From the NCBI RefSeq assembly GCF_900110115.1, contig NZ_FOCM01000004.1, forward strand, positions 248,001-312,000: a DNA stretch of 64,000 nt. The letters run 5' to 3'. A program made the position numbers and the translations under genes. This document shows, in pieces, positions 6,748-64,000 of this stretch (position 1 is the first letter of the stretch; the number at the start of each line of letters is the position of its first letter). The notes below the pieces were generated by a model, which did no database searches, was not told the origin of the DNA, and saw only the letters and a list, made by a program, of their open reading frames with translations. This stretch comes from Palleronia pelagia (GTDB lineage: Bacteria > Pseudomonadota > Alphaproteobacteria > Rhodobacterales > Rhodobacteraceae).

Positions 6748-6797
6748 GTGGGGGGCCAGCCCCCCACGCCCCCCGAGGTATTTCGGGAAAGATGAAG
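6748..6797 (+). repeat. GC-rich palindromic repeat, copy 1 (intergenic)
   Basis: A 9-bp hairpin GTGGGGGGC-CA-GCCCCCCAC (6748-6767) is followed by a conserved tail ending GTATTTCGGGAAAGATGAAG (6778-6797). The tail is identical in the copy inside xdhB (62593-62643), and related copies lie at 23231 and 60446. This copy sits between the idnD stop and the YmdB-like gene stop, two convergent genes. Confidence 0.85.
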
Positions 6798-23230: not shown

Positions 23231-23280
23231 GTCCGGAAATACTTCGGGGGCCGCGCCAGCGGCGGGGCAGAGCCCCTCTG
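23231..23280 (-). repeat. GC-rich palindromic repeat, copy 2 (diverged, intergenic)
   Basis: Reverse-oriented copy: the tail GAAATACTTCGGGGG is at the left and the hairpin GGGGC-AGA-GCCCC is at 23264-23276. It lacks the GATGAAG end of the other copies, having CCAGTGATGG there on the element strand. It lies between the convergent LLM and photolyase genes. Confidence 0.65.
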
Positions 23281-59762: not shown

Positions 59763-59959
59763 GGGCCGCACGATAAATGGGCGCCGCCACCGGGGGAAGG
59801 CCCCGCGGCACACTTCCCTCGCGGAACCGTCCCGGGCCGGTCTTGCCAAGGCCCGCCCGATCCGCCTAGCCTCGGTCGCGACAGGGCCGCCCGCTTTCTA
59901 CGCCGCATCGAAAGGGGGCTTTCGCGCCAGGTAGGACGGTAACGCGGCGGACACATCAC

Positions 59960-61435
59960 ATGAATATCTCCTTCCGCCTGAACGGAGACGCGGTCACGGT
60001 CGACACGGCCCCGACCACCACCCTGCTGGACTGGCTGCGCGAGACGCGCGGGCTGACCGGCACGAAAGAGGGCTGCAACGAAGGCGACTGCGGGGCGTGC
60101 ACGGTCATCGTCACGGACACCGACGGGCCGCGCACGTTGAATGCCTGCATCCTCTTCATGGGTCAGCTGGATGGCGCGGCGGTCCGCACGGTCGAGGGTC
60201 TGAGCGCGCCGGACGGCACGCTGCACCCGGTGCAGCAGGCGATGATCGACCATCACGGATCGCAATGCGGCTTCTGCACGCCCGGCTTCGTGACCGCCAT
60301 GGCCTGCGCCCACCTGACCGGCGCCACCGACCACGACGACCAGCTGGCGGGCAATCTCTGCCGCTGCACCGGCTACGCCCCGATACTCCGCGCCGCCCGC
60401 GCGGCCGAGACCGCGCCGATCCCCGACCACATGCGCGACACCCCCCTTCATCTTTCCCCAAATACCTCGGGGGACTCCGCCCCCGGCGGCGGGGGGCAGA
60501 GCCCCCGCTCCCACGCCGCCGTCGGCGCGGCCTGGGGCCATACCGCGGCCCTGGCCGCCACCGGCGCCTCGGGCGCGGGCGACGCGGGATGGGCGCAGGA
60601 GGGCGTACGCCCCTCGACACTGGACGAGCTCGCCGAATGGTACGCCGAAAACCCCGAAGCGACGCTCGTCGCCGGGGCGACCGACGTGGGGCTGTGGGTG
60701 ACCAAGGGCCTGCGCGATCTCGGTCCGGTGGCGCTTCTGAACGGCATCGACGAGATGCAGCGGATCGAGATCACCGACGACTCCGTGCGGCTGGGCGCCG
60801 GCGTGACGATCGCCGCGATGCGCGAGGCGCTGGCGCCGATCTGGCCCGGCCTGGGCGAGCTTCTGCGCCGCTACGGCTCGCAGCAGGTGCGCAATGCCGC
60901 GACCATCGGCGGCAATATCGCCAACGGATCGCCCATCGGCGACGGCTCGCCCGCGCTGATCGCGCTGGGCGCGCGGCTTCATCTGCGCAAGGGGGACGTG
61001 CGCCGCGACATCGCGCTTCAGGATTTCTTCATCGACTACGGCAAGCAGGACCGCGCGCCCGGCGAATTCGTCGAGGCCGTCACCGTCCCGCGTGGGCCCG
61101 GCGCGGCGCAGTTCCACAAGATCTCCAAGCGGTTCGACCAGGACATCTCGGCGGTCTGCGGATGCTTCTACATCGAACGCGACGGCGAGCGGATGACGAC
61201 CGCGCGGCTGGCCTTCGGCGGGATGGCCGGCACGCCCAAGCGGGCGGCGCGGGCCGAGGCGGCGCTGATATCCGACGGGATCGCCGCCGCGCAGGACGCG
61301 CTGGGACAGGATTTCACGCCCATGTCTGACATGCGCGCCTCCGCGGCCTACAGGCTAGAGGCCGCGCGCGGCCTTCTCGCGAGACTTGACGAGTCCGACG
61401 CGCGGCAAGGCTCGGTGCTGGAGGTGCGGGCATGA
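59960..61435 (+). CDS. xdhA: Xanthine dehydrogenase small subunit (FeS and FAD)
   Basis: Electron-transfer subunit of xanthine dehydrogenase. The 491-residue protein has two [2Fe-2S] sites ([13 protein letters not shown] with an upstream Cys pattern; CGFCTPGF with CRCTGYAP). An FAD domain ([14 protein letters not shown] and [20 protein letters not shown]) and a CO-dehydrogenase flavoprotein C-terminal domain follow. The linker between the FeS and FAD parts, about residues 155-215, is unusual: residues 163-185 are encoded by a palindromic repeat element also found between genes, which kept the frame open. The surrounding Ala/Gly-rich stretch is also unlike other XdhA. Its stop overlaps xdhB (ATGA). 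Confidence 0.95.
60446..60513 (-). repeat. GC-rich palindromic repeat, copy 3 (inside xdhA)
   Basis: Reverse-oriented copy within xdhA: CTTCATCTTTCCCCAAATAC starts at 60446 and the hairpin GGGGGC-AGA-GCCCCC lies at 60492-60506. On the element strand the tail matches copies 1 and 4 with one mismatch in the GTATTT-GGGAAAGATGAAG part. It is translated in frame as part of the interdomain linker ([20 protein letters not shown]). Confidence 0.85.
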
Positions 61436-63888
61436 GCGTCGCGAAGCCCCTGCCCCACGACAGCGCGCGGCAGCACGTCACCGGCGCCGCGCGATACATC
61501 GACGACATGCCGACGCCCGCGAACTGCCTGCACCTGGCGTTCGGGCTGTCGGACACCGCACATGGCGAGATCACCGCCATGGACCTCGACGCCGTGCGCG
61601 CGGCCCCCGGCGTGGTGGCGGTGCTGACCGCCGCCGACTTGCCCTTCGCCAACGACGTGGCGCCCGCCGCCCATGACGAGCCACTGCTGGCCGACGGCAC
61701 CGTGCATTACGTGGGTCAGCCGATCTTCGCCGTTGCCGCCACCAGCCACCTGGCCGCCCGCAAGGCCGCGCGGCTAGGCCGGGTCGAGATCGCGGCGCGG
61801 CCCGCGCTGCTTTCGGTCGAGGACGCGCTGGCCGCCGACAGCCGGTTCGAGGACGGGCCCCGCATCTACGCCAAGGGCGACAGTGGGGCGGCCCTGTCCC
61901 GGGCGGCCCACCGCCTGACGGGCCGGATCGAAATGGGCGGGCAGGAGCATTTCTACCTCGAAGGCCAGGCGGCTCTCGCGATCCCCGGCGAGGGCGGCGA
62001 CATGGTGGTTCAGTCGTCGTCGCAGCACCCGACCGAGATCCAGCACAAGGTGGCCGAGGCGCTGGGTCTGCCCATGGCCGCCGTGCGCTGCGAGGTGCGG
62101 CGCATGGGCGGCGGTTTCGGTGGCAAGGAAAGCCAGGGCAACGCGCTCGCCGTGGCCGCGGCCGTGGTCGCCGCCGTCACCGGGCGGCCCTGCAAGATGC
62201 GTTACGACCGCGACGACGATATGATCATCACCGGCAAGCGCCACGACTTCCGCATCGATTACGACGTGGGCTTCGACGATGATGGCGCGATCGACGGGCT
62301 GGACTTCACGCAATACGCGCGCTGCGGCTGGGCACAGGACCTGTCGCTGCCGGTGGCCGACCGGGCCATGCTGCACGCCGACAACGCCTATCACCTGCGC
62401 GACGTGACCATCACGTCGCACCGGCTGAAGACCAACACCCAGAGCGCAACTGCCTTCCGGGGCTTCGGCGGGCCGCAGGGCATGCTCGGGATCGAGCGGG
62501 TGATGGATCACATCGCCCATCACCTGGGGATCGACGCGCTGCGGGTCCGTCGGGCGAACTACTACGCCGACGTGCCGGTCGAGGGCGCAGGACCGGGGGG
62601 CCAGCCCCCCGGACCCCCCGGAGGTATTTCGGGAAAGATGAAGCCGGGGGACAGCGCGTTGGCGGGCGAGATGCCGATCCGCGGCGATGGCGATGCGGCC
62701 AGCCGGGGTGCGGACGTGGAAATGACGGCGCCGGTGGCGGGCCGCGCGGCGCCGGGCGACCAGACGACGCCCTATCACATGCCGGTCACCGACTTCATCC
62801 TGGGCCGCATGACCGAGCGGCTGGTGGACGAGGCCGATTACCACGCGCGCCGCGCGGCGGTGGCCGAATGGAACGCGGCCAACGACGTCCGGAAGAAGGG
62901 GATCGCGTTCACCCCCGTGAAATTCGGGATCTCGTTCACGTTGACGCACCTGAACCAGGCCGGCGCGCTCGTGCATGTCTACCAGGACGGCTCGGTCCAC
63001 CTGAACCATGGCGGCACCGAGATGGGACAGGGGCTTTACCAGAAAGTGGCTCAGGTCGCGGCCGACCGGTTCGGGATCGCGCTATACCAGGTGAAGATCA
63101 CCGCGACGGATACCGGGAAGGTGCCCAATACATCGGCCACCGCCGCCTCGTCGGGCGCCGACCTGAACGGGATGGCGGTGAAGGTGGCCTGCGACACGAT
63201 CCGCGACCGGATTGCGGGATTTCTGGCGGAATTGCACCAGTGTTCGGCCGCGTCCGTCGTCTTCGAGGATGGATTTGTGCAAGTCGGCGCCGAACGGCTG
63301 CCCTTTGCCAAGGCGGTCCAGCTGGCCTACCAGGGCCGCGTCAGCCTGTCGGCCACGGGGTTCTACAAGACGCCCGATATCGAATGGGACCGCATCCGCG
63401 GGCGCGGGCGGCCCTTCTACTATTTCGCCCATGGCGCGGCGGTGGCCGAGGTGGTCATCGACACCCGCACGGGCGAGAACCGCATCCTGCGCGTCGACAT
63501 CCTGCATGACGCGGGGCGGTCCCTGAACCCGGCCATCGACTTGGGCCAGATCGAGGGCGGCTTCGTGCAGGGGGCCGGGTGGCTGACCACCGAGGAACTG
63601 GTCTGGGACGATCACGGCCGGCTGCGCACCCACGCGCCCGCCACCTACAAGATCCCCGCCGCCTCGGACCGGCCCGAGATCTTCAACGTCGCACTGTGGG
63701 ACGGCGCCAATGCCGCGCCGACGATCTATCGCTCGAAAGCCGTGGGCGAGCCGCCCTTCATGCTGGGCATCGCGCCGTTCCTCGCGCTGTCGGACGCCGT
63801 GGCGGCGTGCGGGCCGCACTACCCCGCGCTGGACGCGCCGGCGACGGCCGAGCGCGTGCTGGCCGCCGTTCGGAGGGCCCGCGGATGA
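61432..63888 (+). CDS. xdhB: Xanthine dehydrogenase large subunit (molybdopterin)
   Basis: Catalytic subunit that oxidises hypoxanthine and xanthine to uric acid at a molybdenum cofactor. The 818-residue protein shows [67 protein letters not shown] and [10 protein letters not shown], whose Glu is the catalytic base. Between [10 protein letters not shown] (near residue 384) and [11 protein letters not shown] (near 445) there is an extra stretch of about 55 residues; its first part (388-404) is encoded by palindromic repeat copy 4. Other XdhB proteins pass directly across this point. All catalytic motifs are intact. It overlaps xdhA and xdhC by four bases each. Confidence 0.96.
62593..62643 (+). 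repeat. GC-rich palindromic repeat, copy 4 (inside xdhB)
   Basis: A 9-bp hairpin CCGGGGGGC-CA-GCCCCCCGG (62593-62612) is followed by a tail ending GTATTTCGGGAAAGATGAAG (62624-62643), identical to copy 1 over the last 22 bases. It is translated in frame as [18 protein letters not shown] within xdhB, in the opposite orientation to the copy in xdhA. Confidence 0.9.
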
Positions 63889-64000
63889 GCGCCGTCTGGG
63901 TCGAGGTCCTGCGCGCCCGGGGCTCGGCGCCGCGCGACGCGGGCACCGCCATGCGCGTGACCGAGACCGGGGCCGACGGCACGATCGGCGGCGGCACGCT
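63885..64000 (+). CDS. xdhC: Xanthine dehydrogenase accessory protein XdhC (5' part)
   Basis: First 38 codons of a gene cut by the window end. The product begins [20 protein letters not shown] and continues to DGTIGGGT, matching the N-terminal XdhC/CoxI domain with its RGSAPRxxGT motif and IGGG turn. XdhC binds molybdenum cofactor and inserts it into XdhB. The start overlaps the xdhB stop (ATGA), completing the xdhABC order. Confidence 0.92.
   Translation, partial: MSAVWVEVLRARGSAPRDAGTAMRVTETGADGTIGGGT

Follow-up and report, generated by a model that had tools for sequence, protein, structure and literature searches.

A short palindromic repeat of Palleronia pelagia is translated in frame in both subunits of xanthine dehydrogenase, antisense in xdhA and sense in xdhB. 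The element is a GC-rich hairpin followed by the tail GTATTT-NNNN-AAAGATGAAG, about 50–70 nt in total. Its coding copies lie in protein linkers and have a tail in common with the intergenic copies, and the core of this tail changed slowly between two species. The element is considered, with a probability of roughly 60%, to be a REP-like repeat of the whole family Rhodobacteraceae, which is situated chiefly between genes, is read as nucleic acid and is tolerated and translated in disordered linkers of XdhA and XdhB in many lineages and of BchB in some.

Element copies in the window and in the genome

The window is the whole stretch of 64,000 nucleotides that was analysed. A scan of the window located the tail motif at 6778 (+), 60446 (−, one mismatch) and 62624 (+), with an expectation of 0 from 100 shuffled windows. 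The open frame of xdhA, the xanthine dehydrogenase small subunit (TIGR02963), occupied 59960..61435 (+), and that of xdhB, the molybdopterin-binding subunit (TIGR02965), occupied 61432..63888 (+). The copy in xdhA (60443..60508, −; tail at 60446–60465) was antisense and in frame, and encoded XdhA residues 162–183 (22 aa). The copy in xdhB (62593..62643, +; tail at 62624–62643) was sense and in frame, and encoded XdhB residues 388–404 (17 aa). Its hairpin arms, GGGGGGCCAGCCCCCC, were at 62595..62610 (+), with a third C-rich arm 3′ of them at 62614–62619 (+). An intergenic copy (locus L005; 6750..6797, +) was located between convergent genes. The motif sites and both open frames confirmed the preliminary description of this DNA, which had proposed a single repeat family placed in frame in xdhA and xdhB in opposite orientations, with about one tail difference in xdhA.

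The folding of the copies was compared with that of shuffled sequences. The copy at 6750 had a z of −3.02 and the xdhB copy a z of −2.14; the xdhA copy folded only slightly better than shuffles (z −1.10, 26/200 shuffles as good). A fourth copy had been claimed at 23231. The sequence at 23231..23275 (−) resembled the element in its hairpin and in having GAAGTATTT on that strand, but the AAAGATGAAG tail was absent from it in the window motif scan even at up to 3 mismatches, and its fold was no better than shuffles (z −0.24). It was regarded as a degenerate relative of uncertain membership. The Rfam 15 covariance models gave 0 matches to E 1 in 59900–64000.

The P. pelagia genome (3.85 Mb, 25 contigs) was scanned with GTATTTSGGGAAAGATGAAG at up to 2 mismatches, which gave 63 matches and 0 with the reversed pattern. 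A second core pattern gave 61 matches, and both patterns combined gave 65 distinct copies. With genes assigned by a codon-usage model, for which the window served as training sequence, the count that the preliminary description had proposed came to 63 intergenic copies against 2 in genes, namely xdhA (antisense) and xdhB (sense). The contexts of the intergenic copies were tandem (26 and 16), convergent (17) and divergent (4). An oriented terminator was rejected, because the two tandem contexts showed no strong bias.

A G4..C4 hairpin was found upstream of the tail in 42/65 copies and was missing in 23/65. The spacer was mostly CGGG or GGGG in the hairpin copies and mostly TTGG or ATGG in the tail-only copies (e.g. 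L040, L041 and L048), which may be a separate class. The ATG of the tail (AAAGATGAAG) may be the start of the next gene in L048, near 3000 (G000:C10:19216), and on the minus strand in L026, L043 and L058. The L048 frame opens with MKLGAALSFGVALAVAAGC, which resembles a lipoprotein signal peptide. At L047, a plus-strand copy (G000:C9:94281) and a minus-strand copy (94446) are about 165 bases apart with tails facing.

Sites in XdhA, XdhB and BchB

The XdhB of P. pelagia shared 97% identity with its P. salina counterpart, and an end-to-end XdhB match including the loop was found in 12 of 14 genomes of the genus. Another type of XdhB, lacking the loop, occurred in G003 and G013, and beside the looped type in G005 (L078–L082, L094). 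A first set of 92 loci was assembled from the 12 genus loci and the best 80 of 363 XdhB relatives, these 80 being all from Rhodobacteraceae or alphaproteobacterial MAGs. P. salina was probably counted twice in this set (L067, L096), and two loci were without a usable XdhA linker. A regular expression was used as the detector. In the XdhB loop a recognisable element was found in sense at 36/92 loci and in antisense at 0; in the XdhA linker it was found in antisense at 25/92 and in sense at 0. The remaining 349 kb of xdhAB sequence contained 10 matches, and shuffles gave 0.1–0.35 per set.

Since the detector had been written after the first-set sequences were seen, it was applied unchanged to 70 further loci. 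This second set was a family draw with nearly one genome per genus, comprising the 30 loci nearest to a Rhodobacter capsulatus fragment and 40 picked down the list. The XdhB loop could be extracted in 53/70 loci, and the element was sense in 26/53 and antisense in 0. The XdhA linker was scored in 33 of the 40 loci covering it, and the element was antisense in 10/33, one of which also matched in sense. Only 2 matches were found in 166 kb outside the sites. When two loci common to the first set were removed, the values were 25/51 for XdhB and 9/32 for XdhA. The element was thus family-wide in Rhodobacteraceae xdhAB loci, and the suggestion that the extra segments might be present only in this genome was not upheld.

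The frame of the XdhB copies was uniform (30/31 in the first set and 25/25 in the second; 55/56). The XdhA copies used three frames in the first set (12/7/6) and two in the second (7/1). The XdhA element DNA kept in three frames therefore encodes three different peptides. On an XdhB tree made with the loop removed, the fewest changes were 18 for XdhB presence, 13 for XdhA presence and 6 for XdhA frame; part of these counts will reflect copies that have decayed beyond recognition by the detector. The loop was absent from the XdhB of Sphingobium, Sinorhizobium and Paroceanicella, a member of Rhodobacterales. A loop without a recognisable element was found in Ruegeria THAF33, Rhodobacter CZR27 and 56/92 first-set loci, which indicated that the site does not need the element. 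A hairpin-plus-tail pattern was also scanned across 240 genomes of the class. Of the three family members included, it matched the P. pelagia genome and one other, and the 237 alphaproteobacterial genomes outside the family gave a single chance-like AT-rich match; as five consecutive G and five consecutive C are required, other variants would be missed.

The preliminary description had assigned the copies to a linker and a loop, and the protein evidence agreed with this. The alignment of XdhA to 1jro_A/2w3r_A spanned residues 1–167 and 204–489, and the element was located in the linker between the FeS and FAD domains. The XdhB loop (62569..62763, +; residues 380–444) was predicted to be disordered, with a pLDDT under 50 at 385–441 in a model of moderate quality (mean pLDDT 72, with other stretches under 50 outside the loop). 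The loop position corresponds to the chain split of nicotinate dehydrogenase, where 3hrd_A aligned to residue 377 and 3hrd_B from 488. The element is only part of this loop, and the earlier figure of about 55 residues for its contribution to XdhB was reduced to 17. The non-element part includes D(I/V/L)ASRGA, which is present also in relatives without a recognisable element. D(L/I/V)ASRGA and GTGKRFGGAHSPKP recurred in the XdhB loops of L097–L175, with or without the element. An element-like peptide, GGLSAPPSPPEPIATKK, occupies this loop in the crystallised R. capsulatus enzyme. This case is known from the peptide alone; the R. capsulatus xdhB DNA was not recovered, and the best match to its fragment was 74%.

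The hairpin loops of the XdhB coding copies were mostly of 4 or 7 nt (CCAG, CTGTCTG), and those of an intergenic sample were mostly of 5 nt. Stems of at least 5 pairs between the C-rich arms were found in 10/33, 6/18, 7/14 and 5/9 coding copies, compared with 1.6–2.7% of shuffles. The stem is kept in coding copies while its sequence differs, so that the peptide differs.

A third host gene was bchB (TIGR01278), which encodes a chlorophyll-synthesis enzyme and in some relatives has the element in sense at a linker. In 11 other genomes, 3/52 distinct copies were coding, two in xdhB and one in bchB. Among nine plasmid bchB genes, a clear element was present in Thalassococcus sp. S3 and Tateyamaria omphalii, a degraded one in Sulfitobacter sp. 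S190 and a hairpin-like remnant in Roseinatronobacter sp. S2; no element was visible in the remaining five. In G024, bchB contained a copy and had a further one immediately upstream of it (L278, L283; C1:154386 and 155775). In plasmid records, whose annotation is incomplete, the best place was without an annotated gene in 48/48, 3/4 and 18/19 cases. The exceptions were bchB (of the 4) and a Sagittula gene (of the 19). The latter was rejected as a host, because the match merely abuts its stop codon.

Tail dialects and conservation between species

The number of pattern matches per genome elsewhere was 4–98, and 6–98 in eleven relatives reached through the loci, where overlapping starts were counted repeatedly and the reversed control gave 0. 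After TATTTNNN, the tail was genome-specific, for example GACCAAAGAAG, (A/G)CCAGAAGAAG, GCCAAAAGAAG or CCAAGAAGAAG, and several genomes had two or more tails. The tail of P. pelagia was (G/A)AGGTATTTNNNGAAAGATGAAG; tails elsewhere were TATTT-based. Within the genus, the tails of G007, of G009 with G012, and of G001 differed from that of P. pelagia, whose exact core was found in only 5/14 genus genomes.

The agreement of coding tails with these dialects was investigated using 18 coding TATTT tails from 15 genomes and 16 reference sets, each of 3–9 tails per genome except for P. pelagia. The XdhB tails of L098, L104 and L106, which have no TATTT, were left out. The tail's own genome was best or tied in 17/18 cases and strictly best in 13/18. 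The mean similarity was 0.929, compared with 0.693 after permutation, and 0/20,000 permutations were as good. The coding tail of L125 departed from the dialect of its genome. At each of L066, L073 and L076, the dialect of the xdhA copy was also that of the xdhB copy. The preliminary description would have been contradicted by relatives carrying the protein segments with no DNA likeness to the intergenic repeat; the scorable coding tails instead matched the intergenic repeat of their own genome.

The copies of P. pelagia (G000) were compared with those of a second species, G008. Through the element, 57/65 aligned; 2 more aligned to its end and 3 were recovered by synteny. Thus 62/65 sites were common to both species at about 97% identity; one was replaced and two were not located. 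None of the 65 sites was seen in an empty state with a clean junction. Over the 57 pairs, changes were found at 3/342 positions of GTATTT and 3/570 of AAAGATGAAG, core figures that are partly ascertained, since the initial detection of most G008 copies relied on the exact core pattern; the three synteny-recovered copies add two core changes. Changes in the spacer were 12/228 and just downstream 78/1140. The hairpin was no slower than the flanks (100/2679, compared with about 3%). The tail core was slow even where the surroundings had diverged (intergenic L023, L042 and L057).

Interpretation and related repeats

The fixed orientation, the fixed XdhB frame and the common sites point to old residents, and constraint on nucleic acid is indicated by the dialect match together with the slow change of the tail core. 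According to the favoured reading, some factor would read the tail in its DNA or RNA form, and such selection would hold the coding copies in the dialect of their genome, whether or not conversion from other copies contributes. A disordered Pro/Gly/Lys-rich insert would merely be tolerated by the protein. Among binding, conversion and fresh insertion, most weight is given to binding, with or without conversion. A more specific form is put forward tentatively: the tail might be recognised by a DNA- or RNA-binding factor that is specific to the family and evolves fast, and changes of dialect might sweep all copies of a genome, including those in xdhA, xdhB and bchB, which would serve there as sites at the nucleic-acid level.

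Rickettsia provides the best-known palindromic repeats that lie in frame. The preliminary description had likened the present repeat to those elements, and the comparison was supported, since this palindromic repeat is also translated in frame in xdhA and xdhB, and in bchB of relatives. PMC10969869 and PMC6649704 describe the Rickettsia elements as having palindromic parts, as in frame within proteins and as having a conserved peptide; nearly half of the copies are coding according to a review, and repeat identity is lost with time (PMC6649704). The present element differs in length (about 50–70 nt against about 150 bp) and in its small coding share (2/65 here and 3/52 elsewhere), and it occupies few recurrent genes family-wide, with genome-specific tails and a tail core that is kept. 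The likeness is one of description, and the present element is not assigned to the Rickettsia elements.

The element resembles REP elements as a short, species-specific intergenic hairpin with tens of copies and an unpaired end tag, but the tag is neither GTAG nor CGTC. RAYT (PF01797) gave 0 matches in the P. pelagia genome, with 5/14 controls positive, and matched in 12/100 family genomes; a RAYT-driven REP was rejected because this genome has none. The main text of the survey PMC3733652 makes no mention of Rhodobacter, Roseobacter, Paracoccus or Ruegeria. CIR is likewise an alphaproteobacterial intergenic repeat; according to PMC10969869, it is found exclusively between genes and is linked with methylation sites. 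The present repeat has coding copies, and a CcrM-associated repeat was rejected because GANTC occurred in only 13/65 copies. DNA uptake sequences have genome-specific dialects, are often at gene ends and number hundreds or thousands of copies. The dialects are alike, but only tens of copies are found here. ERIC and RU of enterobacteria are intergenic repeats with occasional in-gene copies (PMC2759123 and PMC10969869, available parts); they are longer (RU-1, 127 bp), and the available parts do not describe dialect-following at fixed protein sites. A search of the open-licence PMC literature by topic and literal motif strings found no paper on such a Rhodobacteraceae repeat.

A selfish mobile element, RPE- or MITE-like, was considered unlikely. 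The current variant of each lineage would insert anew, and the linkers of xdhA, xdhB and bchB would simply be the places where in-frame insertions survive. This would explain the dialect match of the coding copies, the three XdhA frames, the equal frame of BchB and XdhB copies, and the repeated changes on the XdhB tree (at least 18, 13 and 6). However, orientation was fixed at each xdh site and the XdhB frame nearly so. The sites common to two species indicate little recent movement, and neither a RAYT in this genome nor a clean-junction empty site was seen.

A single functionless ancestral insertion per gene, matched to its genome by gene conversion alone, was judged improbable. It accounts for the fixed orientation, the fixed XdhB frame and the dialect match, but conversion of whole elements would bring the common 5-nt loops into XdhB. 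Its 4- or 7-nt loops indicate that at most the tail was converted, and the slow core amid diverged surroundings speaks for selection.

A long-range duplex between the copies in xdhA and xdhB, formed within one mRNA, appeared very improbable. The opposite orientation at both sites throughout, and the dialect shared by both copies in three loci, are in its favour; both copies, however, occurred together in 13/92 loci, near the 9.8 expected under independence (36, 25), and independent pairs on the tree showed no association. Selection on the protein for a disordered linker rich in Pro, Gly and Lys, the DNA likeness being convergent, fits a length-variable loop predicted to be disordered, but was already disfavoured as scarcely credible, because DNA rather than peptide follows the genome's repeat in the dialect test and the XdhA DNA is kept across three frames.

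If the recognition-site reading is true, the factor, and not the protein, would dictate part of the sequence of each enzyme. The natural dialects provide a means to seek whatever reads the tail. The family in which the repeat recurs, at identical linkers of particular enzymes, is large, free-living and culturable. As its coding tails are in step with the intergenic copies, the family offers a tractable system for the study of non-coding repeats becoming protein.
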